In this document: positions 1,754 through 25,148 of the stretch, piece by piece | How the letters are laid out: every line of letters begins with the position of its first letter | Position numbering within the stretch: the first letter of the stretch is position 1 | Translations under genes and position numbers: made by a program | Source of the DNA: a virus | Virus record (IMG/VR): IMGVR_UViG_3300046010_004033 | Coordinates: 1-26,627 of that record | DNA length: 26,627 nucleotides | Direction: 5' to 3' (one strand) | The notes under the pieces: generated by a model | Database searches by the model: none | Seen by the model: only the letters and a program-made list of their open reading frames with translations | Told to the model about the DNA's origin: nothing

Positions 1754-1759
1754 TAAATC

Positions 1760-4516: not shown

Positions 4517-4527
4517 CGGAACGACAT

Positions 4528-5742: not shown

Positions 5743-5750
5743 ATACGATT

Positions 5751-6125: not shown

Positions 6126-6148
6126 TAAACTACCCAGTTTTTGTTCCT

Positions 6149-6156
6149 GATAAATA
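6149..6156 (+). promoter_or_regulatory. Candidate late promoter GATAAATA before the gp6-like gene
   Basis: GATAAATA, followed by CTATATAATAGG, lies in the 52-base gap between the gp25 and gp6-like genes, 21 bases before the ATG at 6178. It fits NATAAATA, the late-promoter form described for T4-like marine phages. A TATAAT at 6160-6165 immediately follows and could act as an additional -10 box, although a transcript from it would start almost at the ribosome site (AGGA, 6166-6169). The motif is seen directly; function is inferred. Confidence 0.5.
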
Positions 6157-6177
6157 CTATATAATAGGAAAAGAAGC

Positions 6178-9100
6178 ATGGCAATCACCACGAGACAAAC
6201 CAGTTTATTAATTGCAGAAGATTGGACCAAGTTATATCAATCTTTCCGTAATGCAGACTTCCAAAGCTATGATTATGAAACTCTGCGTGCTAGTATGGTC
6301 AGCTATCTACAGCTTTACTACCCTGAAGATTTTAACGACTTCATAGAAAGCAGCGAATTTATCGCACTGATTGACATGATCGCCTTCCTAGGGCAAAGTC
6401 TTGCTTTCCGCGCCGACTTAAATGCCCGTGAAAACTTTATCGATACTGCACAACGCCGTGACAGCATACTTAAACTTGCACGCTTGATCAGCTATAATCC
6501 CAAACGCAATATCAACAGCAAAGGGCTTTTGAAGTTTGACTCAGTCAGTACTACTGAAACCCTATACGACAGCAATGGGCTTGATCTCAGCGGACTGGTG
6601 ATCAACTGGGCAGATGCTGGTAACAACAATTGGTTAGAACAATTCACCCTGATCCTAAATGCGGCATTCGTGAATAATCAAAGCGTTGGTAAGCCCAGCA
6701 ACAGCCAGATCATCAACGGCATCATCAATGAAGAATATCAGATTAATTTATTGACCAATACCCTGGCTCGATTCCCCTTTAATTCCACAGTAGCGGGCAC
6801 CCAGATGCCGTTTGAGATGGTCAGTCCTACCAGCGCAGGTAAGACCTATATATATGAATCCAATCCCAGTCTGAATGCTCCATTTAACGTTCTCTATAAG
6901 AACGATAATCTAGGCAATGGATCTGCTAACACAGGGTTCTTCCTTTATTTTGTACAGGGAGCTCTACAAAGTATAGACTTTAATTTTGCAGAAAGCATTC
7001 CTAATCGTGTGTATAGCGTTAATACCAACAACATCAACAACAGCGATATTTGGTTATATAGCATAGATGTCAACGGTAATTTAAATGATCTATGGCAAGC
7101 TGTACCAGCGGTGGCCAATACAAATGTCATCTATAATCAGATGCAGAATAGAAATATCTATCAGGTAAACACACGTGCTAATGATCAGATCGATCTAGTA
7201 TTTGGCGATGGAAGTTTTGCTAATATTCCACAAGGTACCTTTAGACTCTACTATCGAACCAGTAACGCCTTACAATACAAGATCACTCCGGATGAAATGC
7301 AGGGCATAGTCATTCCCGTAAATTATGTCACAGCCACAGGACGTATCGAAACACTTAACATCACGGCTAGCCTACAGTATACTGTGGCCAATGCTACCAC
7401 CAGAGAAAGCCTTGACGATATCAAGCAAAAAGCACCACAACAATATTACACGCAAAATCGCATGATCACGGGCGAAGATTATAATATCTTACCCTATACC
7501 CTGTTCAATGATATATTAAAAATCAAAGCAGTGAATAGAACTAGTTCAGGTATCAGTCGTTACTTAGATGTCATTGATGTCACAGGCAAATATTCCAGCA
7601 CCAACATCTTTGCACAAGACGGCATGATCTACAAAGATACATTTATCAACACATTTAGTTTTGACTACAATACCACCAATGACATCTATCGGGTGATCTA
7701 TGATCAGGTACAGCCCATAGCAGAAGCACCCGAAACCCTACAGTTCTTCTATTCAGATTACCCCTTGATAGAGCTTAACGACATTCGATGGCATACATCA
7801 ACTACTATCGCCAATGGTTCGACTGGATTTTTCGTTGATGCTAGTGGTAAGATCCTGCAGATTGGATCTGCGGTGACTAGTAATAATCAATACATAGTCC
7901 AGAATTCGATAGTGAGATTTTCAGCAGGACCGGGCAACTATTTTGATGCTAATAACTATGTCAAGGTTGGCGTTCCCAGCAAATCGGGAGACAAATACTA
8001 TATCTATGCAGCCATTGAACTGGTAGTGGGTGATGGGACCAATCGTGGACAAGGTAATCTATCCAGTGGCCAAGGGCCAGTGACCATCAATGCAGTCATC
8101 CCCAGTATCGGTCTCGATCTAGCAGAACAAGACATCATTGGTGACAAGGTATTTGCTGTGTTCAACAATAATTTCTCAAATAGCCTGGTCGCACAGATGG
8201 TCAGCTACATACAGGCCTTTGCTAATTTTGGTCTGCGCTATGATGTACAGTCGGGCACTTGGAAGATCATCACTCCACAGGATTTAAATACTGCGGACGA
8301 ATTTAATCTGACAAATGCAGGAAATACCAGTGGGCAAGCCCTTGATTCGAGTTGGATCATAGCATTCCAAACAGTGGGCCAGACCTACACAGTAAGCTAT
8401 CGTGGATTGAACTATGTGTTTGAAAGTGTACAGGAAACCAACTTCTACTACGATGGCACTACTAAGATATTTGATGCGGCCACGGGATTGACCATCCGCG
8501 ATCAGATAAAAGTATTAAAAGTCAACACTAATCCTGACAATGCTAGTCCATTGGCCCTAGACTACATCTGGAACGTGTACAAGAGCGTGACCAATGTTGA
8601 TGGCTATGTAGATATCAATAAGATATTATTAACATTCTCAGACAGTGACAACGATGGAGTTCCTGACAATCCTGAACTATTTGATCTGATCGTAAACCCA
8701 GCTGTGAATACCAACAGCAAGTATGTATATTTCGTGCAGACAGTGGGCTACGATAATTTTGCAGTGCAAGAACCTGTTGATAACAACACAGTGGTGTCTA
8801 TATATAGTTCATTGAGAGATACACAGATCGCGGCCACGCTGTATCAAAATGGACAGTTGTTCTACATACCAAATGACAACAAGTTCTATAAACTCAGTGT
8901 AAGTGGAGCTGTTTATACCCTAGTGGAACAGACTGGCACCGGTAGCACGGATCTCTATACTGCCAAACTTGGCCGCCAGGACATCTATTTCCAATATCGC
9001 CACAATAGTCCAAACAATCGACGCATCGACCCAAGTCCAAATAACATCATTGACTTGTATATAATGACCCAGCAGTATGCCATTGACTACATAGCGTGGG

Positions 9101-9813
9101 CACAGGATATCACAGGTACTATCATAGAACCAGCGGCACCGACCAGCGAAGAATTAGAAACCAACTATAGTACATTAGATAACTATAAGGCTGTCAGTGA
9201 TACTATAATCTACAATCCAGCGGCTTTTAAACCTCTGTTTGGCAGCAAAGCTATTCCAGCACTGCGAGCTACGTTTAAAGTGATCAAGAATCCTAATGTG
9301 ATAGTCAGTGATAATGATATCAAGACTTCAGTTATCGCTGCTATCAATCAATACTTTGACATCGCCAATTGGGATTTTGGTGAAACGTTCTATTTCAGTG
9401 AACTAGCGGCATATCTGCACGTACAATTGGTTCCAAAGATTTCCAGCATCATCATAGTACCAGCCAACGAATCAGAAGTGTTTGGTAGCTTGATGCAGGT
9501 AAATGCCAACATAAATGAGATCATTACCAGCTCTGCTACTGTCAATGATGTCAAGATTATTTCAGCAATTACTGCCGCACAATTAAATCTAAGAGAAGGT
9601 ACGATTATTACAGACATTGATACTAGTAGTGCTGGTACAAGCAGTGTGCGTATAACAACACCTACTAGAACTAGCAGAACCACAAGCAGTGGCAGTGGCA
9701 GTGGCAGTGGCAGTAGTTCAGGTGGTGGCAGTTCAGGCGGTGGCAGTAGTTCAGGTGGTGGCAGTAGTTCAGGTGGTGGTGGCAGTTCAGGCGGTGGTGG
9801 CTATGGATACTAA
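6178..9813 (+). CDS. 6: Baseplate wedge protein gp6-like, enlarged, with Gly/Ser tail
   Basis: This 1211-residue protein is nearly twice T4 gp6 (660). The N-terminal third is the most family-like: YLQLYYPEDFNDFIESSEFI, then MIAFLGQSLAFRADLNAREN, DTAQRRDSILKLARLISYNP, later QIDLVFGDGSFANIPQGTFR (about 337-356) and RMITGEDYNILPYT (about 428-441). These are hallmarks of gp6/baseplate-J wedge proteins, which form the ring of dimers that opens when the tail contracts. The C-terminal part (about 1010-1140) is helix and strand-rich and typical of the gp6 core end. The extra middle (about 500-950) is beta-rich and contains DSDNDGVPDNPE at 822-833, a calcium-loop-like motif. The last 40 or so residues are almost only Gly and Ser, ending GGGGYGY. 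It follows gp25 as in T4. AGGA 8 bases upstream supports the start. Confidence 0.85.
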   Translation: MAITTRQTSLLIAEDWTKLYQSFRNADFQSYDYETLRASMVSYLQLYYPEDFNDFIESSEFIALIDMIAFLGQSLAFRADLNARENFIDTAQRRDSILKLARLISYNPKRNINSKGLLKFDSVSTTETLYDSNGLDLSGLVINWADAGNNNWLEQFTLILNAAFVNNQSVGKPSNSQIINGIINEEYQINLLTNTLARFPFNSTVAGTQMPFEMVSPTSAGKTYIYESNPSLNAPFNVLYKNDNLGNGSANTGFFLYFVQGALQSIDFNFAESIPNRVYSVNTNNINNSDIWLYSIDVNGNLNDLWQAVPAVANTNVIYNQMQNRNIYQVNTRANDQIDLVFGDGSFANIPQGTFRLYYRTSNALQYKITPDEMQGIVIPVNYVTATGRIETLNITASLQYTVANATTRESLDDIKQKAPQQYYTQNRMITGEDYNILPYTLFNDILKIKAVNRTSSGISRYLDVIDVTGKYSSTNIFAQDGMIYKDTFINTFSFDYNTTNDIYRVIYDQVQPIAEAPETLQFFYSDYPLIELNDIRWHTSTTIANGSTGFFVDASGKILQIGSAVTSNNQYIVQNSIVRFSAGPGNYFDANNYVKVGVPSKSGDKYYIYAAIELVVGDGTNRGQGNLSSGQGPVTINAVIPSIGLDLAEQDIIGDKVFAVFNNNFSNSLVAQMVSYIQAFANFGLRYDVQSGTWKIITPQDLNTADEFNLTNAGNTSGQALDSSWIIAFQTVGQTYTVSYRGLNYVFESVQETNFYYDGTTKIFDAATGLTIRDQIKVLKVNTNPDNASPLALDYIWNVYKSVTNVDGYVDINKILLTFSDSDNDGVPDNPELFDLIVNPAVNTNSKYVYFVQTVGYDNFAVQEPVDNNTVVSIYSSLRDTQIAATLYQNGQLFYIPNDNKFYKLSVSGAVYTLVEQTGTGSTDLYTAKLGRQDIYFQYRHNSPNNRRIDPSPNNIIDLYIMTQQYAIDYIAWAQDITGTIIEPAAPTSEELETNYSTLDNYKAVSDTIIYNPAAFKPLFGSKAIPALRATFKVIKNPNVIVSDNDIKTSVIAAINQYFDIANWDFGETFYFSELAAYLHVQLVPKISSIIIVPANESEVFGSLMQVNANINEIITSSATVNDVKIISAITAAQLNLREGTIITDIDTSSAGTSSVRITTPTRTSRTTSSGSGSGSGSSSGGGSSGGGSSSGGGSSSGGGGSSGGGGYGY
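9685..9802 (+). repeat. Gly/Ser-coding tandem repeat at the 3' end of the gp6-like gene
   Basis: The DNA consists of reiterated GGCAGT hexamers (about 9688-9714) followed by imperfect copies of GGTGGTGGCAGTAGTTCA and shorter GGTGGTGGCAGTTCAGGC versions. It encodes a Ser/Gly stretch with GSGSGSGSSSGGG-type units ending at the stop codon. Such repeats readily change length by slippage and give a flexible linker or tail. It is confined to the last codons, so length change would not break the frame when units are multiples of three. Confidence 0.9.
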
Positions 9814-9854: not shown

Positions 9855-12800
9855 ATGGCAATTAGAAAGACACAGACATTTTTACCACAGATATTCCAAA
9901 CTGACACGAATCAGAAATTCTTGTCGGCTACCATGGATCAACTGGTCAGCGAACCAGATCTAGAAACTCTGTATGGATACATCGGTCGTAAATTTTCTCC
10001 CACATTCGTTAATTCAGACAGCTATGTGATTGAATCTAGTGCAGATAGACAAAACTATCAGCTTGAACCTAGCATAGTGATCAGAGATAAGCAGAAGAAC
10101 ATAACTTTCTTTGCTAGCTATCTAGATCTATTAGCTAAGATTCGATACTATGGTGGTATCACTACAGATCAGAGTCGTTTGTTTGAACAAGAATATTATA
10201 CATTTGATCCATTGATCAGCTACGATAAATTCGTTAACTTTAGTCAATACTATTGGACACCTAGTGGCCCTGATCCAGTGGAAGTCAGCACCAGTGGTGT
10301 TGATCTAACTGTGACCTACACCGTAGAACGTGATGCACCTAACAACAGATATATTTTCAAAAACAATGGTGTAGGATACAACAGTATTATCCTAGCCAGA
10401 GGTGGCGTATACGAATTCGTAGTAGATCAACCTGGACATCCCTTATGGATACAGACTGAATTAGGCACAGATGGTAAATTAATAGCCACACCAACATTGA
10501 GTTCTCGTACAGTATTAGGCGTAGAAAATAACGGTACGGATCAAGGTACTATCACATTCCGTGTGCCACAATCAACGGCCCAGGATAGATTCCTAAACAT
10601 GCCTATCGCTGCCGAAGTCGAGTATGCGGCACCTTTACCGTACGCAGCACTACAAAATAAAACAGTCAGCCAATTCCTTGCCGCATATCCACAATATGGT
10701 GGTATCACTGGTCAGCTCAATGGAAAAGAACTGATTTTTATCAATTCTTCAGCCTACGACAATCTCGGAGAAGCCGCTTGGACGAATGCTAATGTTAACT
10801 ATGGATCACAAACAGCCAATGTGGCTAATGTAGCTATTGGTGCTGTTGGAACTAACACACTAAAACTTAACTCAGTCCAAAATGTCTATGCGAATCTGAT
10901 CATCACAGGCACAGGTATTCCAGCTGGAACCACTGTGGTCAATGTCAGCACAGGCGGTAGTTCGATTTTACAAACATTCTTAGTTACAACTGTGCCAAAT
11001 CCTGACACTCCACCTCCTAACAGCATTTATCAGTTAAATGGAGCAAACAAGCCTATATTGACACTGATACGTGGTGGAGTCTACACCTTTGACCAAAGTA
11101 GTGCTTCCAACATTAATCATCCTCTAGCGTTTCAAGATAGCACCGGTGCTGCATTTACCAGAGGTGTTATTAGTACAGGTACTCCAGGAACTGCTGGCGC
11201 ACAAACAGTTTTTACAGTGCCTAGCGATGCGCCTGATAGTTTACTATATCGTTGCACAACCCACGGCAATGGTATGGGTAATACGATCATAGTGAGTGGT
11301 GTAAATATTACTCTGAGTGCCAATCTTACAGCTAATGCAGCAGGATCATATTCATTTGTCAGTACAGAATATAATTCAGGATATAATGTTCCTGATGCAG
11401 ATCGCTTTGATGTATGGAAAGTAGTTTATGTCGACGCTGGTATAACTAACAGCAGTGGCGGCATCGACTATCTGGTGCAACTTGTTCGTACTACGAATAT
11501 CAATACCAATGAAAAGGTGTATATCAGATATGGATTAGTAAATGCCAATAAATTATACTACAAGGACTTTGACGGATTTCTTAAAGAAGTTCCATTGATC
11601 ACAGCCACATTAAACAACTTATGGATACAAGATGCCACTGTTGGTACACTATATCAACCCGTACAGATTGTTGAGTATGCAGGATGGACGATCGATGCCA
11701 ATGAAGAGATCATTGGCAAGCAAAATTATACCAGTCCCAATGGAGTAGAATTTACTTCAGGATTAAAAGTCCAGTTTGGTGATGATGTTACTCCCGCTAG
11801 TTATCAAAATCGCCAGTTCTATGTTGAATTGGTGGGAGATCTCGGTAGTGGCATAAGATTGGTGCCAGTAGACGAACTAGTGACTCCAGAAGCCTACAAT
11901 GATGAAAATGCCACGAATTATCCTCTGATCAGAATAATTCTAAGTGAACAGGTAACAGAAAATATCCCCACAGGTACAACGATATTAATTGGTACTACCA
12001 GCGTATTAACCTATGAAGAAGTTATTCTTGGTAAAAATTATATAACCACATTGACCAGTGTAGATCAATCACAGATAGGTGAGGTGGTATCCGGTTTAGG
12101 AATTCCTGAAGGAAGTATAGTCAGCTCGGTTCGTCTTAACACGGTATTTCCAGATTACATTACCATCAACAAGGCCAGCCGAGACCGCAATGCCTGGTCA
12201 CGGAATAATCGCTGGACCCATGTTGACGTGATATTAGCCACAGCCGAGTATAATGGAGTCCAACCAGTATTTGATCAAAGCAGCCGAGCGCAACGACCTA
12301 TCATACAGTTTGAATCTGACATACAGCTGATCAATGAAGGACGTGTGGCCAAGGCACCTATCGACATATTAGATACAACGACCTTAAATGCCTTTACGGA
12401 TCTGCAGGGGAAAACTTTTAGCACGGCATTTGGCATAACCTTATTCGATGGGCTGCGTGTGGTATTTGCTGCCGATCAAGATCCCTTGGTAAACAGCAAG
12501 ATTTACGTGGTTAATCTGGTCCAATATGATGTTGACAGCTTTGGCAGACCCAGTGGTCCGATTTATATTAATTTAACCCTAGCAGATGATGGAGAAGTCG
12601 ACGCTTATTCTACAGTAGTAGTTAAACTTGGTGAATACAAAGGTAGCCAATGGTGGTATGATGGTGTCCAATGGAATGAGAGCCAACAGAAAACAAGCCT
12701 ACAGCAGGCTCCCTTATTTGACATACTGGACAATACCGGCAAGAGTATCTCAACATATCCTAGAAGCACTTTCAGAGGTACTAAGATATTCAGCTATGTT

Positions 12801-15800
12801 GAAGGCACAGGAACAGTTGATCCAGTCCTAGGGTTCGCTCTGAGCTACAAGACTTTCCAAACCCAGGGAGATATCAAGTTCCAGAATTATTTTAATACTG
12901 ACACATTTGAGTATATAACTGCAGATGGTGTCCTAACAACAGATAAGATCAATCTCAATTATATTCAGAAGATAAGAGATGCCGCAACTTTAGTACCTAA
13001 GAATACTTGGCTAACAGTACCAGAAGCCAGCAGACAGTATCAACAGATCAGCTATATCTATGATGGATCTAACAATCCATTTCCGATCGACATAACTCCC
13101 GTTGCATCTGTTACTATCCCCAGTGTCAAGGTGTTCCAAAACTTCGTTTATCTAGACCCCAGCAACTGGACATTGGCCAACAATGAGATCACTTTGCTTA
13201 CTTTAACTGAGCAAGATGAAGGTGATCAGATAGATATCTTGATTTATAGCAGGGACGTCAGTAAATTAGGTTTCTATCAAGTCCCACAGAATTTGGATCT
13301 AAATGCACAGAACATTGACATTGATACATTGACCCTTGGTCAGATAAGAAATCACTTGATAGCTCAGGCACAAAACAGCACGATATTAGTAGGTGAAGTT
13401 CTTGCACAGAGTAATCTCCGTGATATCGATATCAAACAACAGGGTGGCACGATCCTACAACATTCAGCACCAACCCCATACGCCAGCCTATTCCTGATTG
13501 ATGAAAAGGCAAACTTTGTTAACGGGCTAAGATTTGCACAACAAGAATACACCAGATTTAAAAATAAGTTCCTTGAACTCAGCACCAGCTTAAATGGTAT
13601 TAATGCTGATGATCCAGTGGCCAGCGTTGACTTGATCATAACGAGGATCACGCAGGTCAAGAACAGGACATTTCCTTGGTACTACTCCGACATGGTACCG
13701 TACGGTCCATTGAAGAATATCGTGGGTCAGATTGGCAGCATCGATGGGTTTGAAATATTTGACCCGTTGAAACTAAACTATGAGATCACTGAAATATTCA
13801 ATGACCAAGAACTCAGCAACAAGGCAGTGTTAGTTTATTTAAATAATGTTCAGCTGATCAGAGGTATCGAATATAATTTCAGCACAGATACTCCTAGCAT
13901 TAATTTTACCACAGAACTTGCTGTGGGAGATATAGTCAAGATAGTCGAATACTCAAACACTGATGGTAACTACATACCAGAAACACCCAGCAAGTTAGGT
14001 CTATGGCCTACTTACGTCCCTGAAATATTCTTAGATGATACCTATAGAGTGCCCACAACGGTCATCAGAGGACACGATGGCAGTATTACTCCATCATTTG
14101 GAGACTATAGAGATCAATTCCTACTTGAATTAGAAAAAAGGATCTATAATAATATCAAGCTACCTCAGAACTCTGTGTTTGGTGATATATTCCGAGTGAT
14201 CCCTGGTAAATTCAGAGACAGTGATTATAGTCTAGCTGAGATCAATCAGTTGTCCAGTATAGATTTCTTAAACTGGATTGGCAATAATAAACTAGATTAT
14301 TCAACAAATGATACTTTTGACCCCAACGATCAGTTCACTTGGAACTACGCAGAATCAACTGATAGAATAGACGGTAGTAAACTACAAGGTTCGTGGCGAG
14401 CCTGTTATCAATATTTCTATGACACCATACGTCCGCATATCACTCCCTGGGAAATGCTGGGATTCTCAGCTGAACCAGACTGGTGGCAGGCATTCTATGG
14501 TCCGGGACCATACACGGGTGGTAATAAACTCTTATGGGATGACCTAGAAGCAGGACTCATCCGTTACGGTGACCGTGCTGGTGTTGATATTAATTATCGC
14601 CGCCCTGGATTAAGTGCGGTAATTCCGGTCGATGTCAATGGTAATCTATTGAGTCCAGCACAGGCGTTATCACGATCATTTAACAGCAAGAGAACAGCCA
14701 GTGCATGGGCCATTGGACAATACGGTCCAGTAGAATTTGCTTGGAGGAACAGCAGTGAATTTCCTTATGCTATACAACAAGCCCTGGCATTAGCCAAACC
14801 GGGTAGGTATTTTGGATCATTGATTGATACTTATAACTACACACCATTGAATCTACTTAATGATCTTGATGAATTACCTGACGGAACTGTCGCAGGTTCG
14901 CAACAATATCTGACTCGCACGACTAATCATCATCTCACACAAGATGCAGTTAACTTCAATGGTAATACCAATTCAGGCACAGTGTATAGAGGATCTGGGT
15001 ATATCAACTGGGTCGCTGACTATTTGACAAACCTAGGCATCAATCCCACAGCCTATCTCATACCTCTATTGGAAAACTTCCAAGTTAATCTTGGCTACAA
15101 GCTAGCAGGATTCACTGATCAACGTTACCTAGAAGTTCTAGCTGAACAGGTCAGTCCAACCAGCACCAATGCCAGCGTGTTAGTACCTGATGAAAATTAT
15201 AAAATTTATCTAAACGAAAACCCAGTGCCGGTTGACAAGATAGTCTACAGTGCTGTGATCGTTGAGAAAACCACCAATGGTTACAGTGTTCGTGGATATG
15301 ATCTATTCAACAGTTACTTTACCATCATTCCTAGCGTGGTAAATTCCAATGCCAGCAGGATCACGGTCCAGAATAGATCTGCTACCATATATAATAACTA
15401 TCAGAATCTTAAACTACAAGTTCCATATGGTTATGAGTTTACCACTCCACAACAGGTATCAGATTTCTTGATCAGCTATGAACGCTTCTTGGTCGCGCAG
15501 GGATTCACTTTCACAGAAACAGATCCCACACTAAACGAGATACGTAACTTTAGACTCAGCGTAAAAGAATTCTTATATTGGAGCCAACAGGGATGGAAAC
15601 CAGGTAGTATTATTGTATTAAGTCCTGTAGCAGAAACCATCAATGCCATCAGTGTTAATAGCATCACAGCTGGTATCGAAGATAGCCAATATGGCAGCAA
15701 GGTCCTTGATCAGAATTTTGGTCTGGTGAAAAATAACAACTATACCGTGGTAAGGACCCCTAACACATTTAAGTTAAGTCTCAATAATTCAGCCAGTGTG

Positions 15801-18800
15801 ATCGCCTACGTTGAAGTCAATCTGGTACAGTATGAGCATGCATTGGTCTTTGACAACCTCACTGTGTTTAACGACGTTATCTATCAACCAGAAAGTGGTA
15901 GTAGACAGTATCGGTTGAAACTCGTTGGACAAAAAACTGCTGCCTGGGATGGTAGTCTCAGCCCAGCTGGATTCATTTATAATTCTGGCGTAGTTGCTAC
16001 TTGGAATCAAGGTCGAGACTATCTCAAAGGTGATCTAGTAGACTATAAGAATCAATACTACACTGCCCTACAAGATGTTGCGGCGAACCCAGCGTTCCAG
16101 TTCCAATTTTGGCAACAGATTGATGCTAGCCAGATACGAACCGGACTATTACCGAATTTCTCAACCTTGGCAGTACAGAGCCAAGGATACTATGACTCCT
16201 ACAGCAAGATCCGTGATGAAGATCAGCTGAGTTTCAGTCATGCGTTGATTGGATTCAAACCTCGACAGTATCTAGCAGATCTTGGATTGTCTAGGACCAC
16301 ACAGATAGAATTCTACAAGGGATTCATCAAGCAGAAAGGCACAGCTAATGCAGTTAATGAAATGCTGACTGCGACATTTAATAATTTAAGCAGCGATATT
16401 AAATTCTATGAAGAATGGGCCATGCGTGTGGGCGAATATGGAGCCCTGGACAGTAATCCATTCGTGGAAATACCCTTAGATGAACAGGCATTTGGTGCGA
16501 ACCCTAGCGTGGCCAGATTCCTTACTGCCGCAGACAATAATCTAGCAGATGGAGTAAGTTCATTCAATCAATCACAGCTATATAAATCCTATGGCAGCTA
16601 TACTGGTAATGTGGCCTTAAACAGAAACCAGTATAGTAATGTCGACAATGATATTCCTACAGCGGGGTATGTCAATATTGATGACGTAGATTTAGCTATA
16701 TTTGATCTGGCAGATTACGTGGATCTCAACAACGATATAGCCAACATGGGCAGTGGATATACCATATGGGTGGCCAAAGATTTCACACAGGATTGGAATG
16801 TCTATCGCGTGACTGAAACTAATAATTCAGTTCGGCAAGTAGCCAACGCATCAAATGGGTATGTGACTTTCACTACCAAGACCCCACATGGATTTATCTC
16901 TGGCGATATATTCTTAGTTAAAGATTTCCTTACAGCGTTTAATGGATTCTATCAGGTCCACAGAGTCATGAGCCTCAATGAGGTCATGGTTACCTATGCA
17001 GGATCAACAGCCAATCTAACTACCTTATCGGGTAGTGGTATGTTGTTGAGAATGGATAGCATGCGATTCAAGTACATAGAAGATAGTCGTATTTACGGTC
17101 TGACGAATCCACCCAACGGTTGGAAAGTAGGTGATAAGATTTGGATTGATGATGATGCAGAAACCACAGCAGTGCAAGGACAACCATTCGGAACGCAACC
17201 TAACGGTACTTGGAAAGTCTATGAAAAACAAACACCATGGACTTATCAACAAGAGTTACTAAAAGGATTAGGATCTTACACGACTGATGACGGTTACGGA
17301 ACATCAATCAAGATGTCAGCAGATGGATTGATAGTGGTAGCAGGATCTCCTCAGAGCGGGGTAACTGGCAGTGTTAGCACTTTCCTAAAAAACTACGAAG
17401 GAGTATTTTTAGAAAGTTTTAGCATCAGTCCATTAGGTGCTAATACCAGAACATTTGGCTCAGCAGTTGATCTAGCCACTAGGTCAGATGGGTCAGTAAC
17501 TCTTGGAGTAGGCGCACCCACTAGTTTCACTGCAAATGCAAACGTTGCTGTAGGACTAGTTTACATTTATAATAAATCGTTAAGCTCAACCAGCTTTGAG
17601 AGGGGACAAGTCCTGGTAGGCAATACCGGAGATTTATTCGGCACCAGCCTGGCATTTAATCAAACTGGTGAATGGGTCTATGTGGGTGCACCTGGCACTA
17701 ATAGAATGTATGCCTATGGTCTAAATAGATTCATATCTCCACAAGAACAAGTCACATCAGTCAATGATAAAAATATTCTAACCATCAATGATGGTATCCT
17801 GGCAAACATAGGCGATATAATCTCACAACCAGCGACTGGAGCCCGGGCTACTATTGTAGATATAATTGATGCAGGTAATCTAGAGGTTGATAACGTTACT
17901 AACTTCTATTATGGTGCTAATATAATTATCGCTAATGTAACAGTTGATGCTACTGTGTTCATCACCAGTGGAGCTTATGTAAACGACACAGCACGATTCC
18001 CAAGAACAAAATCCAATATATCAATAACTAATAGCATTCCATTAACGTTTGTTCCTGAAGTAATTATTAATGGAAACGTAGATCCAAATTCATTACTAAT
18101 TACCAACGATGGTAAGACTTATATTCCAACAGTTGACTATGTCATAGTAAGTAATGTACTAGCTGTTGGAGGATATGATGTAAGCTTCATCAGCGGCAAT
18201 GTTGAACAGAGCGACGTTACCATACGCCAACAGCCTTACTATCAATTGGTACAAGAATTACCAATGTCATCAACCGGTATCAGTAGTGTAACTGATGCTG
18301 AGTATGGTTTTGCGCTAAGTTCTAGCTTTGGTGGCGAACAGGTGGCGGTAGGTGCACCCAAGGATACAGTAAACGTTGGTGTGTTTGCCACCACCACAAC
18401 CAGTGATATTGAAGTTTCTATAAACGTTGGCGTGTTAACGTCAAGTATATTATATCAAGGTAATGTAGCCAGTCTGACATCATACAACGAATATACTGGC
18501 TCCGGAGCGGTTTATGTATGGGATCGCGTGATTGAAGCATTTAATACTATCACTGATGCAGTATCAGGAACAGGTGGACAAGACTATAGAACTGTTAATC
18601 CAATTGCCAGCGTATACAAGGTTACCTTAGACAACATTGAAGTAACCAATTATACAGTTGCCAACGCCGCAGGTAACATATCAGGTGTTCGTGACACTAT
18701 TAGATTTGTTAGTCCGCCACCGATTGGTCGTGTGATGTTTGTTGAGGTCAACAAATTTAACCTATTAGAAAGGATAGTTGGAGTAGACAGCTTAGAAGGC

Positions 18801-21800
18801 GGACTAGCAGCCATCCAGAAAGATGCCTACTTTGGCACCAGCCTGACTATCTGTAGTAACAACTGTGCGATTTATATTGGCGCACCTAACTATGACAATG
18901 GTACTGAATACAATAGTGGTGCTGTATGGAAATTCCATAACAAAGGTAGATTATATGGTACTAACACAGCCTATGGAACAAATCCAATATTCACCCCTGG
19001 TGATACGATTCGACTAAATGACTTTGAAGTTACAGTAAGTGGTCGGTTAATGCCAACTGCATTTGATGTAAGTACGGCTACATCTATACTTGATATACCA
19101 TCAAACTATGTAAGCGCCAATATACTTGCACTTAGCAGTGATATTGTAGCTAATGTTGGTCAAGTTATAAGTCAAAATTTTGGCAGTGGCTATTATGCTA
19201 ATGTAATCGTATTAGAAAATACTACTCCGAGCACCAGTAACGTAGTCGTAGCATCTAAATTTATCACAGTAGGTGGTAACATCAGGCTTGGCGGGTACAT
19301 GACTGCTAATGTATTTAACTATGGTCCTGGTAATGTAGTAACTGTATATGCTAATACCGGTGCAGGATACAACGGTACTGTATCATCTGCTTATCCAATG
19401 GCCAGCTTAGATAGCTTAGTTTCTGATATTAATTCAGCTGGTATATTAGGTGTATCAGCTACTAATAGTGCAGGGCGCCTGAGATTAGATTCTGATGTTA
19501 CTGTGGCCAAGGATCTACTGCGTATAGTATCCGGTGTTCGCCAGCCCGGCAGTGCCGGAGTCCTTGCAGCGTCTAATACGATAGTGTTCGCATTCATGCA
19601 GATCATCATCAATCCCTTTGGTAATCCTGGAGAGTACTTTGGTAACAAGGTCAAACTAGCGGCCAATGCCTACATGTTGGTCATTGGTAGTCGTCGTGGT
19701 ACTACCAGGAAGTTAACCACATTTGATGCGACCACTACAGCACTAGGCACGAGATTTGATGATGAGACCACAAGATGGTTTGATAGCATACAGGGCAGTG
19801 GTAGCGTGTACATCTATGAGTTATATGATGATCCTCGTAATCAAGTTGAAAATCCAGGACGCTATGCTTATGCGCAACAACTTGATCCAGGTGATCTAGT
19901 TCCGGGCAGCCAATTTGGTGCCGCTGTAGACATCGAAGGAACATTCATCACTGTGTCAGCTCCTAGTGCTACGGTAGCTAATGCCGCACCTAACTCAGGT
20001 ACAGTTTATATATTTTCTAACCCAACTATGACTCGCGGGTGGGAATTGATACGTTATCAACAACCTAAAGTTGATGTGGAAAGCATCAATAGGATCTATC
20101 TATACAGTAATCAAACTAATACTATCTTAGCTGACCTACAGTTCATCGACCCAGCCAAAGGTAAGATCTTTGGTCAGGCTGAACAGGAAATATCATTCAA
20201 GACAGAATATGATCCCGCAATCTATAATAGAGGATCTAACCCAGCTGCAGATATCAACACTAACATCTATTGGAGCAGCAATCAAGTTGGTAAGGTATGG
20301 TGGAATCTATCAAGAGTCCGATATGTTGACTATGAACAAGATACACTAACCTACCGCAGCCTATATTGGGGACAACTATTCCCAGGTTCAACTATTGAAA
20401 TCTACGAATGGGTAGAAAGTACTGTATCACCAAGCCAATATGTGATAAATGGTGGAGATGGTATACCTAAGTATGCCGATGATTCAGCTTATGTAGAAGA
20501 TATAACTGTGGACGCATTCACTGGTATAATCACCACCAAATACTATTATTGGGTCATCAACAAGACCAGTGTTGATCCTAATGATCCTACTAGACGCATA
20601 CCGATATCAGCTGTAGCAGATCTTATAGCTAATCCTAAAAATCAGAACATTGCCTATGCGGCCATGATACGCCGTGATGCTATAGCATTTTATAATGTAA
20701 GTGACTATCTAAGTGCCGATAATACTATTATGCATTTGGATCATCAGCTGACAATCAACTCAGACATCATACACAGTGAATACCAATTAGTACAGAAAGA
20801 CAACATCAATGATCCAGTTCCAGTCAAGATAGTCGACAAGTTGATCGACAGCCTATCTGGGATAGATCGCAACGGATCAACCGTGCCTGATCCTAAACTG
20901 AGTCCAGCTGACCGCTATGGTATTGAAATACGTCCAAGGCAAAGTATGTTTGAAGATCGTCTACGGGCTGGTAGCGAGATGGTATTGTATGTAAATAATA
21001 TCTTACTAGCTAATCCCGTGGTTGAACAGTTTAGCCTAGAAGGAATGAATGCCGCAGAACCTATACCTAATATCAAACTAGGTGAATATGATCAAAGCGT
21101 AGCTACTGAAATAGAATTAGAATATATCGATACAGATGAACTTGATCCCGGATATCGAGTCTTGGTCTTGACTGATATCGGCCAAGAGGGGCTATGGGTA
21201 CTGTATGTGCTATCAGAACAAAAATCCTGGGAGATCGTTCGCATTCAAAGTTACAAGACTAGTCTATATTGGCAATACACAGATTGGTATGGAGTTAAGG
21301 CCGATGGTGCCAGATATAGCAGCACCGACAAACCTGATTTCAGCGTGAACACCGCTAATGATGCACTAAAACTAGCAGCCACAGAGGGACAACTGATCTA
21401 TATCAGCAATGCCACAGGTAATAATACCTGGCAACTGGTAGAAGTAGAAACTGATGGCAGTTTTAAAGTGGTTGGTATACAGAATGGAACTATACAGGTG
21501 GATCAACGTCTGGTAGATTTTGCCGGACAGGGTCTGGGATTTGGTAATCAGGATTTTGACAGCAACAGATTTGATCAGAACCCAAATATAGAAATTAGAA
21601 ATATCTTAACAGCGTTGAAAAATGACATATTTGTCAACACTCTCCAAGGTGAATTTAACAAGTTATTCTTTGTCATGGTCAATTATCTATTGACTGAACA
21701 GACCTATGTTGATTGGTTGTTTAAGAGCAGTTTTATCAGCGTCACACACAAACTTAGAACTCTCAGTCAGTTTCCTAGTTATGTTGTTGATAATCAAACC

Positions 21801-24800
21801 TACTATCAAGATTACATCAATGAAGTTAAACCTTTCAGAACCAAGATTCGTGAATACACGATTGATTATATTGGCGACGATAGTTTTGATGGGGACATTA
21901 CTGACTTTGATTTACCCGCTTATTATGACACATCAACAGGATACGGTATATTCCGTAGCCCCAGCGGCGAACGTCCTTATGTAGATCAAGATTCAGCTAC
22001 ATGGCAGACATGGCCATGGAACCAATGGTATAACAATCGCGATCTGCAGGTTTCTAGCATAAGGATAACAAATCCTGGTCAGGGTTACACGTTACCTCCT
22101 ATAGTTACTATAGTCAGTACTGATGGTAAGGGATCAGGAGCAACCGCCTTGGCCACTCTAGATGGTAACACTGGTGGAATAGCTATTATCACGGTCACAG
22201 ATCCAGGTAGTGCTTATACCACCACACCAACAGTGATCATCAACGGCAGCACCATTGGCAATATTATAGCCATTGGCGGCAACGTTTCTACAACATCTAC
22301 AAATACCTACACACTGTCAACAGTTACTGGTTTATTTGTTGGTATGACTGCTAACACAGCGTTTGCCGCTGATACGCAGATCACCAGCATTGATGAAGGC
22401 AATCTGCAGATAACCATGGACGCCGGCAATCTTACTACATTTACTGGTAGCGTCATCAGCTTTGGTTATCCAGGACAAGAAACAGGAACTCCGGCAACTG
22501 CCTATGCGGTCATGAGAAATCCGCAGACAAGAAACTTTGATACCACTATCAAATTTGATCGTATTACCTACGATAGCACGGTGCAGGAATGGCAATCTAA
22601 TACAGCTTATACAGTAGGACAGATCATCACCCATGCTCATCTTGATGGAAATGTTATGATCCGCAAGGCCTATGAGGTAACTGCAAACGCAGTTTCAGGA
22701 ACCACATTCCTTGCTAGTGATTATACAGAATATGCCGCTGGCCGTTTTGACAATGCAAATGATCGAATCGTGGGCTATTACGAACCTGGTAGCATCATGC
22801 CAACAGTTGATGTGATCTCTGTACCGTTAACACTGGCCAACAGTGCTACAAATACAAATACCATATATGTATATTCCGTAGATGGGATATTTCCTGGTAT
22901 GTACATTGGTAATTTAGGTGTCAGATCAGGATATATCACTGAAATAGTAGGCAACGTATCAGTGATGATTGACAGTGTTGGATCCATGGGAACCATCGTT
23001 GGTAATCTGGTTGCCGGTAGCAGGATCGTGACCGGAGTGATTGGAGACATTACTGCTATCCGTGCAGATGAAATAGTTACGAACATAGGACAGGTCCTAG
23101 GTGACTATGTAACAGGCCCTGGCATATCATTAAACACTACTGTGACAGCAAATACCGTAGCTGGTACTATTTCATTAAGCAATCAAGCCGCTACGACTGC
23201 TAATTTTGCAAACATAATCTATGGTGGTACAGTCATATCTGTGTCGCAGATAACACTCAGTGTTCCTGTATCTCTAGCAACCAATGATACTATCACAGCA
23301 AGATATGAAAGCCTAGATCAGTTGATCACGGGCATTGATTATCCTAATGCTCCAGTTAGATCACCAACTTTCCGTTCTGATCCACTATTTGGTCGTAACT
23401 GGGATAACGCTGCCTATGATGGAGTCCAATATAGCCGAGATGGTATTGCCTTGTTATCAACTAATGCCTACGATATTTCTCTATACAGCTTGTACGGCGG
23501 AACTCTAGGATTCGCTCCCGAAGATCTCATTACCTATGGTGGCGATTTTATTGACACATATCACAGCCGTGCTCCTGAAGAACTAGTGCCTGGTATCACA
23601 TTTGATACTTTAGACATGAGAATCTATACCAAGATTGATGCTAATGCCAATGTCATAGCTTATCGTGTGTTTAATAACATGCTGGGAGATACAGGATATC
23701 TACGCATATCTTCGGCTAACACTACTGCACTAACATCTCAATTGACTATCAATGACAGTGAAATATATGTGGCAGATGCTACAAAATTAAGTGCTCCAGA
23801 TAAACTAACAGCCACACCCGGAGTCATATTCATCAACGGTGAACGCATCACCTATTATAGAAACTACAGTAGTGAAGTAGTAACATGGACAGCTAGTACC
23901 AATTTTGTAGTAGGCAGTATTTTAAATTATGGTAATGTCATAACATTTAGCTCACCAATCACAGCTAATCGCGGAGAATATATTGCACAGGCAAATGTTG
24001 GTGCTAACGCAATCGTTACAGCCAACGTGGTAAATTCTACAACAGTACCGGTTTACTATGCAACCGCCACAGCATTTAGTCTAGGTGCTAATACTATACA
24101 AGTAACTTCTGGTATTAATGCAGTACAGATATCGGAAATTCTAGCATCAGGTAATGCACAAATATGGAGTGTGGCTGGCAACAGCAACATCAGAGTTACT
24201 ACAACCGCAGTGCTGACCACGGGTACAGAGATACAGTTTAATACAAGTTTTGGTAATGTTGTTGGTAACATCACCTACTACATAGAATCAGTGTATGGTA
24301 ATGCGGCCACAAGTCCAACGGTACCTGTGGCCAATGTTATTAAAATTGCTAACACAGCTAACGGTGCTCCTGTAACTGATCTGGTTGCGAATTTCTACAG
24401 TAATATCACAGCCAATGTTATTACTATAGTTGATTACAATGCTTACCCTATAACTAGTGCTGAGGCCTACTACAAGACCACAGGTAATGTCAATTCTATA
24501 ACATTCAACTATGCTAACGTAGTTCAATTGCCTAGCCTAAATATCCTGAGCCAGATCCATAGAGGTACACAGGGCACAGGCAGTGCCGGTGTTTATCCTG
24601 TTGGAATGGAGGTACTAGATGGTGGTCGAGATCAATTGGTTCCAGCAACTGCAAACGTCAGCAGAATAACTACCACAGCTACTAGTGGACAAACAGTATT
24701 CCCAACACCTAGATATCAACTAAGATCTAGTACAGACAATCAACAACAACTGAGGGTTTCTGTAAACGGTACACCAACATTCATCAATGCCTACAACGAA

Positions 24801-25148
24801 GTTGCTAGTTCATCGACCACAGTCAGCTACACAGGTACAGATGGTAATCTAGTAACTGTAATCGTAGAATACGGCAATACCATCACATTTGTTACTGGGT
24901 TAACTAGTGGTAGCACAGTCGTAGCTGAAGTTGATGTTTATTATGCTAACGTATGGTATAACAGTGGAATCGGCACAATAACTGACGGTTTAGGATTTAC
25001 TGGTGCAAATACCACAGCAACAAACTTCCTAAGGGGTTACCCAGTAACCAGCACAGCGATACCTGGTGTAAGTAATCCTGTGACCACTGAAGATGCGATA
25101 AATACACTAACCACTGAAACAGATGATGAAATATATACTGAGGATTAG
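9855..25148 (+). CDS. Giant baseplate/virion structural protein in gene 7 position (5097 residues)
   Basis: This single open frame encodes roughly 550 kDa. It directly follows the gp6-like gene, where T4 has gene 7 (1032 residues), so a wedge role is inferred from order. Conserved-looking core blocks: 1-145 (QKFLSATMDQLVSEPDLETL, NYQLEPSIVIRD, FSQYYWTP); about 1516-1660 (TPWEMLGFSAEPDWW, WDDLEAGLIRYGDRAG); about 2133-2212 (TQIEFYKGFIKQKGTANAVN, then YEEWAMRVGEYGALDSN); about 3949-4026 (TYVDWLFKSSFISVTHKLRT, NEVKPFRTKIREYTIDYIGD). Between and inside these lie a degenerate and a complete cupredoxin-like module (153-255, 392-482), seven FG-GAP blades (2471-3395), a Gly-Tyr beta repeat (4073-4132), and several Asn/Val/Thr-rich beta modules. 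No signal peptide or membrane segment was seen. Only a weak ribosome site (GAG, 12 bases upstream) in an AT-rich leader precedes the ATG. The frame is intact throughout. Virion structural role is fairly sure; equivalence to gp7 is not proven. Confidence 0.75.
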   Translation: MAIRKTQTFLPQIFQTDTNQKFLSATMDQLVSEPDLETLYGYIGRKFSPTFVNSDSYVIESSADRQNYQLEPSIVIRDKQKNITFFASYLDLLAKIRYYGGITTDQSRLFEQEYYTFDPLISYDKFVNFSQYYWTPSGPDPVEVSTSGVDLTVTYTVERDAPNNRYIFKNNGVGYNSIILARGGVYEFVVDQPGHPLWIQTELGTDGKLIATPTLSSRTVLGVENNGTDQGTITFRVPQSTAQDRFLNMPIAAEVEYAAPLPYAALQNKTVSQFLAAYPQYGGITGQLNGKELIFINSSAYDNLGEAAWTNANVNYGSQTANVANVAIGAVGTNTLKLNSVQNVYANLIITGTGIPAGTTVVNVSTGGSSILQTFLVTTVPNPDTPPPNSIYQLNGANKPILTLIRGGVYTFDQSSASNINHPLAFQDSTGAAFTRGVISTGTPGTAGAQTVFTVPSDAPDSLLYRCTTHGNGMGNTIIVSGVNITLSANLTANAAGSYSFVSTEYNSGYNVPDADRFDVWKVVYVDAGITNSSGGIDYLVQLVRTTNINTNEKVYIRYGLVNANKLYYKDFDGFLKEVPLITATLNNLWIQDATVGTLYQPVQIVEYAGWTIDANEEIIGKQNYTSPNGVEFTSGLKVQFGDDVTPASYQNRQFYVELVGDLGSGIRLVPVDELVTPEAYNDENATNYPLIRIILSEQVTENIPTGTTILIGTTSVLTYEEVILGKNYITTLTSVDQSQIGEVVSGLGIPEGSIVSSVRLNTVFPDYITINKASRDRNAWSRNNRWTHVDVILATAEYNGVQPVFDQSSRAQRPIIQFESDIQLINEGRVAKAPIDILDTTTLNAFTDLQGKTFSTAFGITLFDGLRVVFAADQDPLVNSKIYVVNLVQYDVDSFGRPSGPIYINLTLADDGEVDAYSTVVVKLGEYKGSQWWYDGVQWNESQQKTSLQQAPLFDILDNTGKSISTYPRSTFRGTKIFSYVEGTGTVDPVLGFALSYKTFQTQGDIKFQNYFNTDTFEYITADGVLTTDKINLNYIQKIRDAATLVPKNTWLTVPEASRQYQQISYIYDGSNNPFPIDITPVASVTIPSVKVFQNFVYLDPSNWTLANNEITLLTLTEQDEGDQIDILIYSRDVSKLGFYQVPQNLDLNAQNIDIDTLTLGQIRNHLIAQAQNSTILVGEVLAQSNLRDIDIKQQGGTILQHSAPTPYASLFLIDEKANFVNGLRFAQQEYTRFKNKFLELSTSLNGINADDPVASVDLIITRITQVKNRTFPWYYSDMVPYGPLKNIVGQIGSIDGFEIFDPLKLNYEITEIFNDQELSNKAVLVYLNNVQLIRGIEYNFSTDTPSINFTTELAVGDIVKIVEYSNTDGNYIPETPSKLGLWPTYVPEIFLDDTYRVPTTVIRGHDGSITPSFGDYRDQFLLELEKRIYNNIKLPQNSVFGDIFRVIPGKFRDSDYSLAEINQLSSIDFLNWIGNNKLDYSTNDTFDPNDQFTWNYAESTDRIDGSKLQGSWRACYQYFYDTIRPHITPWEMLGFSAEPDWWQAFYGPGPYTGGNKLLWDDLEAGLIRYGDRAGVDINYRRPGLSAVIPVDVNGNLLSPAQALSRSFNSKRTASAWAIGQYGPVEFAWRNSSEFPYAIQQALALAKPGRYFGSLIDTYNYTPLNLLNDLDELPDGTVAGSQQYLTRTTNHHLTQDAVNFNGNTNSGTVYRGSGYINWVADYLTNLGINPTAYLIPLLENFQVNLGYKLAGFTDQRYLEVLAEQVSPTSTNASVLVPDENYKIYLNENPVPVDKIVYSAVIVEKTTNGYSVRGYDLFNSYFTIIPSVVNSNASRITVQNRSATIYNNYQNLKLQVPYGYEFTTPQQVSDFLISYERFLVAQGFTFTETDPTLNEIRNFRLSVKEFLYWSQQGWKPGSIIVLSPVAETINAISVNSITAGIEDSQYGSKVLDQNFGLVKNNNYTVVRTPNTFKLSLNNSASVIAYVEVNLVQYEHALVFDNLTVFNDVIYQPESGSRQYRLKLVGQKTAAWDGSLSPAGFIYNSGVVATWNQGRDYLKGDLVDYKNQYYTALQDVAANPAFQFQFWQQIDASQIRTGLLPNFSTLAVQSQGYYDSYSKIRDEDQLSFSHALIGFKPRQYLADLGLSRTTQIEFYKGFIKQKGTANAVNEMLTATFNNLSSDIKFYEEWAMRVGEYGALDSNPFVEIPLDEQAFGANPSVARFLTAADNNLADGVSSFNQSQLYKSYGSYTGNVALNRNQYSNVDNDIPTAGYVNIDDVDLAIFDLADYVDLNNDIANMGSGYTIWVAKDFTQDWNVYRVTETNNSVRQVANASNGYVTFTTKTPHGFISGDIFLVKDFLTAFNGFYQVHRVMSLNEVMVTYAGSTANLTTLSGSGMLLRMDSMRFKYIEDSRIYGLTNPPNGWKVGDKIWIDDDAETTAVQGQPFGTQPNGTWKVYEKQTPWTYQQELLKGLGSYTTDDGYGTSIKMSADGLIVVAGSPQSGVTGSVSTFLKNYEGVFLESFSISPLGANTRTFGSAVDLATRSDGSVTLGVGAPTSFTANANVAVGLVYIYNKSLSSTSFERGQVLVGNTGDLFGTSLAFNQTGEWVYVGAPGTNRMYAYGLNRFISPQEQVTSVNDKNILTINDGILANIGDIISQPATGARATIVDIIDAGNLEVDNVTNFYYGANIIIANVTVDATVFITSGAYVNDTARFPRTKSNISITNSIPLTFVPEVIINGNVDPNSLLITNDGKTYIPTVDYVIVSNVLAVGGYDVSFISGNVEQSDVTIRQQPYYQLVQELPMSSTGISSVTDAEYGFALSSSFGGEQVAVGAPKDTVNVGVFATTTTSDIEVSINVGVLTSSILYQGNVASLTSYNEYTGSGAVYVWDRVIEAFNTITDAVSGTGGQDYRTVNPIASVYKVTLDNIEVTNYTVANAAGNISGVRDTIRFVSPPPIGRVMFVEVNKFNLLERIVGVDSLEGGLAAIQKDAYFGTSLTICSNNCAIYIGAPNYDNGTEYNSGAVWKFHNKGRLYGTNTAYGTNPIFTPGDTIRLNDFEVTVSGRLMPTAFDVSTATSILDIPSNYVSANILALSSDIVANVGQVISQNFGSGYYANVIVLENTTPSTSNVVVASKFITVGGNIRLGGYMTANVFNYGPGNVVTVYANTGAGYNGTVSSAYPMASLDSLVSDINSAGILGVSATNSAGRLRLDSDVTVAKDLLRIVSGVRQPGSAGVLAASNTIVFAFMQIIINPFGNPGEYFGNKVKLAANAYMLVIGSRRGTTRKLTTFDATTTALGTRFDDETTRWFDSIQGSGSVYIYELYDDPRNQVENPGRYAYAQQLDPGDLVPGSQFGAAVDIEGTFITVSAPSATVANAAPNSGTVYIFSNPTMTRGWELIRYQQPKVDVESINRIYLYSNQTNTILADLQFIDPAKGKIFGQAEQEISFKTEYDPAIYNRGSNPAADINTNIYWSSNQVGKVWWNLSRVRYVDYEQDTLTYRSLYWGQLFPGSTIEIYEWVESTVSPSQYVINGGDGIPKYADDSAYVEDITVDAFTGIITTKYYYWVINKTSVDPNDPTRRIPISAVADLIANPKNQNIAYAAMIRRDAIAFYNVSDYLSADNTIMHLDHQLTINSDIIHSEYQLVQKDNINDPVPVKIVDKLIDSLSGIDRNGSTVPDPKLSPADRYGIEIRPRQSMFEDRLRAGSEMVLYVNNILLANPVVEQFSLEGMNAAEPIPNIKLGEYDQSVATEIELEYIDTDELDPGYRVLVLTDIGQEGLWVLYVLSEQKSWEIVRIQSYKTSLYWQYTDWYGVKADGARYSSTDKPDFSVNTANDALKLAATEGQLIYISNATGNNTWQLVEVETDGSFKVVGIQNGTIQVDQRLVDFAGQGLGFGNQDFDSNRFDQNPNIEIRNILTALKNDIFVNTLQGEFNKLFFVMVNYLLTEQTYVDWLFKSSFISVTHKLRTLSQFPSYVVDNQTYYQDYINEVKPFRTKIREYTIDYIGDDSFDGDITDFDLPAYYDTSTGYGIFRSPSGERPYVDQDSATWQTWPWNQWYNNRDLQVSSIRITNPGQGYTLPPIVTIVSTDGKGSGATALATLDGNTGGIAIITVTDPGSAYTTTPTVIINGSTIGNIIAIGGNVSTTSTNTYTLSTVTGLFVGMTANTAFAADTQITSIDEGNLQITMDAGNLTTFTGSVISFGYPGQETGTPATAYAVMRNPQTRNFDTTIKFDRITYDSTVQEWQSNTAYTVGQIITHAHLDGNVMIRKAYEVTANAVSGTTFLASDYTEYAAGRFDNANDRIVGYYEPGSIMPTVDVISVPLTLANSATNTNTIYVYSVDGIFPGMYIGNLGVRSGYITEIVGNVSVMIDSVGSMGTIVGNLVAGSRIVTGVIGDITAIRADEIVTNIGQVLGDYVTGPGISLNTTVTANTVAGTISLSNQAATTANFANIIYGGTVISVSQITLSVPVSLATNDTITARYESLDQLITGIDYPNAPVRSPTFRSDPLFGRNWDNAAYDGVQYSRDGIALLSTNAYDISLYSLYGGTLGFAPEDLITYGGDFIDTYHSRAPEELVPGITFDTLDMRIYTKIDANANVIAYRVFNNMLGDTGYLRISSANTTALTSQLTINDSEIYVADATKLSAPDKLTATPGVIFINGERITYYRNYSSEVVTWTASTNFVVGSILNYGNVITFSSPITANRGEYIAQANVGANAIVTANVVNSTTVPVYYATATAFSLGANTIQVTSGINAVQISEILASGNAQIWSVAGNSNIRVTTTAVLTTGTEIQFNTSFGNVVGNITYYIESVYGNAATSPTVPVANVIKIANTANGAPVTDLVANFYSNITANVITIVDYNAYPITSAEAYYKTTGNVNSITFNYANVVQLPSLNILSQIHRGTQGTGSAGVYPVGMEVLDGGRDQLVPATANVSRITTTATSGQTVFPTPRYQLRSSTDNQQQLRVSVNGTPTFINAYNEVASSSTTVSYTGTDGNLVTVIVEYGNTITFVTGLTSGSTVVAEVDVYYANVWYNSGIGTITDGLGFTGANTTATNFLRGYPVTSTAIPGVSNPVTTEDAINTLTTETDDEIYTED
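10311..10619 (+). other. Degenerate cupredoxin-like module in the giant protein (residues about 153-255)
   Basis: The segment has the same outline as the better module downstream: a strand ending in ILARGGVYEFVVDQPGHPLW, a middle loop, then GTITFRVP followed by the closing strand RFLNMPIAAEV. His195 in GHP matches the first His of the second module, but the Cys and second His of a copper site are missing. Fold assignment is by pattern only. Confidence 0.4.
11028..11300 (+). other. Cupredoxin-like module with full type 1 copper ligand set (residues about 392-482)
   Basis: The module opens with YQLNGANKPILTLIRGGVYT, has NHPLAF with His422, and closes with FTVPSDAPDSLLYRC followed by TTHGNGMGNTIIV. 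This gives Cys467, His470 and Met474. His, then Cys-x2-His-x3-Met near the C-terminal end, is the ligand order of plastocyanin-type sites; plastocyanin has one more residue between His and Met. Similar modules occur in structural proteins of marine phages. Whether copper is bound is unknown. Confidence 0.6.
17265..20039 (+). other. Seven-bladed FG-GAP-type beta-propeller with inserts (residues about 2471-3395)
   Basis: Seven segments share an opening aromatic-Gly-x-Ser/Ala, a strand ending in V-G-A-P or a near form, and a closing strand of the type S-G-x-V-Y-x-Y. The openings are at residues about 2480 (GYGTSI, AGSP), 2534 (TFGSAV, VGAP), 2595 (LFGTSL, VGAP), 2817 (EYGFAL, VGAP), 2993 (YFGTSL, IGAP), 3262 (YFGNKV, IGSR) and 3354 (QFGAAV, VSAP). 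Closing strands include VYIYNKS, AVYVWDR, AVWKFHN, SVYIYEL and TVYIFSN. This is the FG-GAP pattern of integrin alpha propellers. Blades 1-3 are 54-61 residues apart; later ones are stretched by inserts to 92-269. Confidence 0.7.
22071..22250 (+). repeat. Gly-Tyr beta repeat pair in the giant protein (residues about 4073-4132)
   Basis: Two copies of a repeat, N/D-P-G-x-x-Y-T followed by a Pro-x-V-x-I strand: NPGQGYTLPPIVTIVSTDG and DPGSAYTTTPTVIING, joined by a segment GSGATALATLDGNTGG. The pattern is typical of short beta-rich repeats in phage structural proteins. Start-to-start distance is 43 residues. No enzymatic role is suggested. Confidence 0.6.
25097..25104 (+). promoter_or_regulatory. 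Candidate late promoter GATAAATA before the fibre-like gene
   Basis: GATAAATAC lies inside the last codons of the giant gene (coding Ala-Ile-Asn-Thr), 46 bases before the ATG at 25151. It is identical over nine bases to the site at 6149 before the gp6-like gene. A separate promoter would let the short fibre-like genes be expressed independently of the 15-kb giant gene. Function is inferred from the match only. Confidence 0.4.

Follow-up and report, generated by a model that had tools for sequence, protein, structure and literature searches.

What would an integrin-type adhesion fold be doing in the middle of a bacteriophage baseplate protein? The question is raised by a viral contig of 26,627 nucleotides (IMG/VR record IMGVR_UViG_3300046010_004033, positions 1 to 26,627; the window hereafter means this whole stretch), in which one open reading frame (ORF) at 9855-25148 encodes a giant protein of 5,097 residues, assigned to the baseplate by its position after gp6. 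All features lie on the plus strand unless stated otherwise. An earlier reading of the letters alone, referred to here as the original prediction, had placed an integrin-like seven-bladed FG-GAP propeller inside this protein. Our analysis supports such a propeller as a block inserted at a joint of the baseplate protein of uncultured jumbo myophages, and on balance we favour the view that it most likely serves as an adhesion hub.

Evidence for an integrin-type propeller

The repeat is legible in the protein sequence. Aromatic-Gly openings stand at residues 2481, 2534, 2595, 2817, 2993, 3262 and 3354, the positions first proposed save that the first had been put at about 2480, and each is retained in no fewer than 34 of the 36 IMG/VR relatives aligned (34, 36, 36, 36, 34, 36 and 35 for openings 1 to 7). 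The sequence between the openings is highly variable, with long stretches present in part of the alignment rows. A strict form of the motif, [FYW]G followed after 12-24 residues by a V-G-A-P-like turn, occurs seven times between residues 2436 and 3410 and is absent from the other 4,122 residues of the giant protein; 2,000 shuffles of the segment gave a mean of 0.10 matches and a maximum of 2. One of the seven is a second register at residue 3255, and the spacing in blade 7 is too short for the strict form.

The Pfam family FG-GAP_2 (PF14312) recognizes the window protein with 42.8 bits against a cut-off of 23, and it matches all 32 of the relatives searched (E up to 0.1; best 2.8e-34). The original prediction had looked to at least six significant FG-GAP hits. 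Membership in the family stands; the count does not hold literally, since HMMER on the window sequence alone finds one stretch that passes by itself, against four in the compact relative L066. A profile built from 35 relatives and run against all PDB chains places 54 integrin alpha sequences first (best alpha-4, E 7.2e-13), and only integrin alpha chains are significant, all others having E > 0.05. Integrins are reached by the profile only: phmmer with the single window sequence found no match in the PDB.

The predicted fold agrees with the profile and family evidence. AlphaFold2 models the window segment with a predicted local distance difference test (pLDDT) of 78.9 and a predicted template modelling score (pTM) of 0.80, and DSSP on this model gives strands 1-2-3-4 in each of seven blades, the assignment of strands to blades being ours. 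The model of L066 (604 residues; pLDDT 85.6, pTM 0.88) has integrin alpha chains as all of its best 47 PDB matches, with E down to 6e-13, and superposes on the integrin alpha-5 chain with a template modelling score (TM) of 0.60 over ~650 columns. Among viral models, the window model matched FG-GAP proteins of giant viruses and reached TM 0.73, on the target, with one uncharacterised 411-residue giant-virus protein. Sequence and model thus support residues ~2461-3395 as an integrin alpha-type seven-bladed FG-GAP propeller. The Asp-rich calcium loops of integrins, which the original prediction had not seen, are indeed not evident: the cage motif DxDxDG occurs 0 times in the window and 3 times across all relatives, not above the 4.3 found in shuffles, and because these motifs are lacking we speak of an integrin-like propeller and not of an integrin propeller proper.

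The predicted propeller begins with the N-terminal strand PWTYQQELL (residues 2461-2469, 17235-17261; DSSP strand 2463-2468). The blades, placed by motif and DSSP and each opening with FG at the residue listed above, follow in order. Blades 1 and 2 occupy 17292-17426 and 17451-17618; blade 3 has strands 1-3 at 17634-17726 and strand 4, by DSSP, at 18237-18263. Blade 4 is divided into strands 1-2 (18300-18356) and, by DSSP, strand 3 (18504-18545) and strand 4 (18732-18776), and blade 5 into strands 1-3 (18828-18941) and a DSSP strand 4 (19587-19610). Blade 6 (19635-19880) has a 36-residue 2-3 loop, and blade 7 (19911-20018) is the sole blade that passes FG-GAP_2 by itself (match 19875-20015). 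PWTYQQELL is probably strand 4 closing blade 7, a 1+3 closure as in integrins. Such closure would fit the strand order of the predicted model and also the junction sequence of contig L081, which assigns WELIRYQQ, the stretch following blade 7, to the flanking region.

Presence and absence as one block

The propeller stands between two regions that we call the chassis: an upstream one at residues 1280-2440 (13692-17174), conserved with cultured jumbo phages, and a downstream profile region at residues 3380-4140 (19992-22274), which shares its first 16 residues with the end of blade 7. The matches of the family phrog_10938 (virion structural protein) to the giant protein flank the propeller, and none falls inside it (E 1.6e-73, 2.1e-175 and 2e-73).

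Does the propeller come and go as a unit? A scan of IMG/VR with the compact alignment found 413 stretches encoding a relative, of which 80 were kept for a check of the joint. All 80 of these further contigs have the propeller flanked by the two chassis profiles; among the rows listed, the match to the upstream profile stops at 1134-1139 and that to the downstream profile begins at 1-5. Contig L081 has 33 residues between the two, against ~920-960 elsewhere, and PA5oct, CBB, RaK2, XbC2 and JNE01 possess the chassis without the propeller. The comparison with related phages suggested by the original prediction therefore finds the segment present or absent as a block. Across the whole genomes of PA5oct, CBB and SCTP-2 there is no FG-GAP_2 match, and tblastn with the window propeller gave no match in cultured phages and no relative in bacterial genomes. 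The same joint is occupied differently elsewhere: another set of repeats comes first in Atu_ph07, after which the joint sequence of the upstream side continues toward the downstream chassis, and Salicola phage SCTP-2 has ~260 extra residues there. A LamG domain was considered for the latter and set aside, the Laminin_G_3 match (E 0.026) being weak and below cut-off.

A quick tree of the upstream chassis, in which L081 and several others form long branches, places the cultured propeller-free phages outside the uncultured clade and L081 inside it, so that one gain and one loss would be the simplest reading of these sequences. Within the uncultured clade, absence of the propeller is shown for L081 alone; L079 has FG-GAP_2, and L080 is a near copy.

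Variable inserts and a recombined cassette

A feature that the original prediction had overlooked is that the inserts between the blades are of domain size, variable and recombining. The blades are constant, and the domain-size inserts A, C and D sit in the 3-4 hairpins of three adjacent blades: insert A in blade 3 (17727-18236; 3-248 residues in relatives, the fastest-evolving part), insert C in blade 4 (18546-18731; 47-63 residues in relatives, beta-rich and possibly Ig-like) and insert D in blade 5 (18942-19586; 91-351 residues in relatives). Blades 4 and 6 have long 2-3 loops as well, and the one in blade 4 forms insert B (18357-18503; 11-66 residues in relatives). By the integrin convention, 3-4 hairpins lie on the face opposite the usual ligand face. 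The end segment of insert D resembles a Flagellin_IN motif, a candidate rejected as weak and below cut-off.

Within insert D, residues 3041-3200 (18975-19454) share 96-99% DNA identity with contig L002, against ~72-80% just outside. The nearest relatives L014 and L011 are mostly 80-96% identical to the window around this segment, yet much of it is missing from them. Because of the jump in identity with L002 and the partial absence in L014 and L011, we read the segment from the DNA comparison as a cassette exchanged by recombination. When two probes of exact cassette DNA were searched in IMG/VR, one found the contig of L002 only and the other found nothing. A module of ~60 residues in the cassette has a related copy in insert A (residues 2640-2702; pairwise E 2e-6). 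Counted over the 34 proteins that contain it, the module has 98 copies, which lie in inserts A and D and toward the C-terminus.

Compared with the two relatives closest to it, the window shows ratios of nonsynonymous to synonymous substitution rates (dN/dS) of 0.04-0.09 for the chassis and 0.08-0.09 for the blades; for insert A the values are 0.31-0.34. Strand conservation is highest in blades 5 and 6 (0.71-0.85).

The giant protein and its neighbourhood

The location within a baseplate protein, as originally proposed, is borne out by gene order, by PHROG and Pfam matches of the neighbouring genes and by mass spectrometry of homologues. Upstream of the giant gene runs a series of baseplate genes (1451-9813): gp53 (1451-1753; Pfam, barely above cut-off), a phage tail lysozyme (1760-4516), a gp5-type OB protein (4528-5742), gp25 (5751-6125) and gp6 (6178-9813; PHROG E 1.2e-299). 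A late sigma factor lies at the left edge of the window on the minus strand. PA5oct and CBB have an identical baseplate gene order. Homologues of the giant protein occur in virions: PA5oct gp355 is marked as detected by electrospray ionization tandem mass spectrometry, and CBB_236 yielded 21 peptides (PMC5259590). Related contigs reach 289, 343 and 354 kb, which makes it likely that the source virus of this 26.6-kb contig is a jumbo phage. A photosystem gene, which would have pointed to a cyanobacterial host, was found in none of nine related contigs.

A module at residues 380-490 of the giant protein (10992-11324) is matched by PHROG tail connectors and carries a putative copper-ligand pattern of cupredoxin-like type (NHPL ... 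YRCTTHGNGM); as it aligns to none of the seven relatives compared, it looks like a recent insertion. Contigs L068 and L069 have giant ORFs of 6,177 and 6,089 residues with an extra insertion of ~900 residues near query residue 900. In L075, L074, L082 and L083 the giant gene is apparently split: an ORF of ~3,650 residues stops near query residue 3881, and a second, of 1,014 residues (cut short in L082), begins near query residue 3913. In the upstream chassis, residues 2049-2080 (15999-16094) carry a CBM_5_12-like motif, below cut-off; the homologous protein of PP408249 bears the annotation chitin-binding type-3, and chitinases turn up as weak matches of the chassis profile. A GxGYxxxPxV repeat module at 22020-22260 (approximately residues 4056-4135) has about 10 scattered copies in Atu_ph07 (L098) and similar single stretches in tail and neck proteins of Synechococcus phages. 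Short tandem repeats at 9686-9797 encode a Gly/Ser-rich C-terminal tail of the gp6-like protein.

Possible roles of the propeller

Which role would account for these observations? An adhesion hub appears to be the best explanation, because a propeller borne on the baseplate carries small beta domains that vary and can be exchanged. The conserved chassis flanking the propeller disc would hold it in the baseplate, with the blades acting as a constant scaffold. In blades 3, 4 and 5 the 3-4 hairpins, and in blades 4 and 6 the 2-3 loops, would display variable small beta domains, and these would touch the surface of the host, or else a glycan that it secretes, as the baseplate lands. What the data establish is the repeat, the class of fold, the place of the block, its presence or absence as a unit, the variability of the inserts and the swap of one cassette. 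Binding of a receptor or glycan had been suggested in the original prediction; we infer it likewise, together with surface exposure, the face that would bind and a possible effect on host range.

Several results weigh against this interpretation or against the structural assignment beneath it. No positive selection was found, every dN/dS being below 1, the fastest insert included. All matches of the inserts to carbohydrate-binding or Ig families fall below cut-off, among them the weak CBM_X2 matches of insert C in relatives, for which reason that candidate was rejected. The window model itself finds integrins in the PDB with TM of 0.1-0.3 and a high root-mean-square deviation, probably because the inserts make up about half of the model; it is for this poor superposition that the compact relative was modelled. 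Closure of the ring is deduced from the linear match of the predicted fold to integrins. Finally, neither chassis profile matches the sequence of a solved baseplate protein, so that the place of the chassis in the wedge follows from gene order; this extends to T4 gp7, as the chassis has no match to solved gp7 and the sole link is the position after gp6.

Purifying selection throughout (dN/dS at most 0.34) would suit a structural spacer or a wedge-to-wedge contact that enlarges or stiffens the jumbo baseplate, where the propeller would bind no host and its loops would turn over neutrally. Its position mid-chain between conserved flanks points the same way, and several homologous phages live without it, as a dispensable spacer predicts. 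Domain-size inserts gathered at one face on three neighbouring blades, a shuffled module family and a recombined cassette, however, would be expected of an exposed surface that changes more than of a packed interface. We regard this alternative as unlikely, though the most serious of those considered.

In integrins the alpha propeller docks the beta subunit, and integrin and other FG-GAP propellers make stable protein-protein contacts. The phage propeller might accordingly be where a second virion protein docks, such as a fibre, a spike or the protein's own C-terminal part, and the high conservation of blades 5 and 6 would fit a constant partner. Since no such partner was identified and the variable inserts would need a separate role, we consider docking improbable. 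An enzymatic role, for instance that of a glycosidase-like propeller, has a precedent in the proposal of a possible degrading enzyme for PhiKZ gp131C (PMC4901313), but is very hard to credit, as sequence and fold matches are to integrins and not to enzyme propellers, with no catalytic signature found.

The adhesion hub invites a bolder extension, which we offer tentatively and think somewhat doubtful: across jumbo phages of this chassis family the joint may be an adhesin socket that holds a seven-bladed integrin-type hub, or possibly, in SCTP-2, a lectin-like (LamG) domain, or nothing, and phages with the hub would retune host recognition by exchanging small loop cassettes with one another. 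If true, exchangeable cassettes on a fixed propeller would form a plug-board for host recognition. As a proposal, the candidate hub is specific and testable: it would offer these phages a way to switch binding targets; natural propeller-free relatives serve as controls, and one loop swap is on record.

Comparison with known systems

Propellers at phage tail tips and in receptor-binding proteins are already known. Our literature search on FG-GAP or integrin-like propellers in phage baseplates, which covered few of the subscription papers, found no description of this architecture. The predicted propeller would place an integrin-type adhesion fold in the tail baseplate of a widespread uncultured group of jumbo phages.

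The homologues in cultured phages PA5oct gp355, CBB_236 and RaK2 ORF070w (of the phrog_10938 type) share the chassis on both sides and the gene order, and the first two occur in virions, but they have no propeller at the joint; CBB does carry Kelch propellers (PMC5259590). FG-GAP repeats are shared by Vibrio phage nt-1 ORF127 and cyanophage S-TIM5 gp054, the latter annotated as virion structural, yet these are free proteins of ~400 residues away from baseplate genes. PhiKZ gp131C (PDB 4GBF) is a seven-bladed propeller of a jumbo-phage baseplate, suggested to be a receptor-binding domain or the enzyme mentioned above (PMC4901313); unlike the propeller described here, it is a separate C-terminal domain of another protein, and it is not among the 50 best PDB fold matches listed for the L066 model. 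The receptor-binding protein of phi11 has a propeller in the adhesion device, with a proposed N-acetylglucosamine pocket, and PRD1 P2 is a further case among phage tail-tip and receptor-binding proteins (PMC4901313). The phi11 propeller differs in being five-bladed and part of a homotrimeric receptor-binding protein, with glutamine cyclotransferase and not integrins as its best match.

The nearest structural counterpart is the integrin alpha propeller (alpha-4, alpha-V, alpha-5), by which human integrins take hold of their ligands and with which the phage propeller shares seven FG-GAP blades, the strand order, a linear alignment with no circular shift and, probably, closure by the N-terminal strand. 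Where the integrin I domain is inserted between blades 2 and 3, the phage inserts occupy the 3-4 hairpins, and the phage propeller, devoid of the calcium cage motifs, is carried mid-chain in a baseplate protein.

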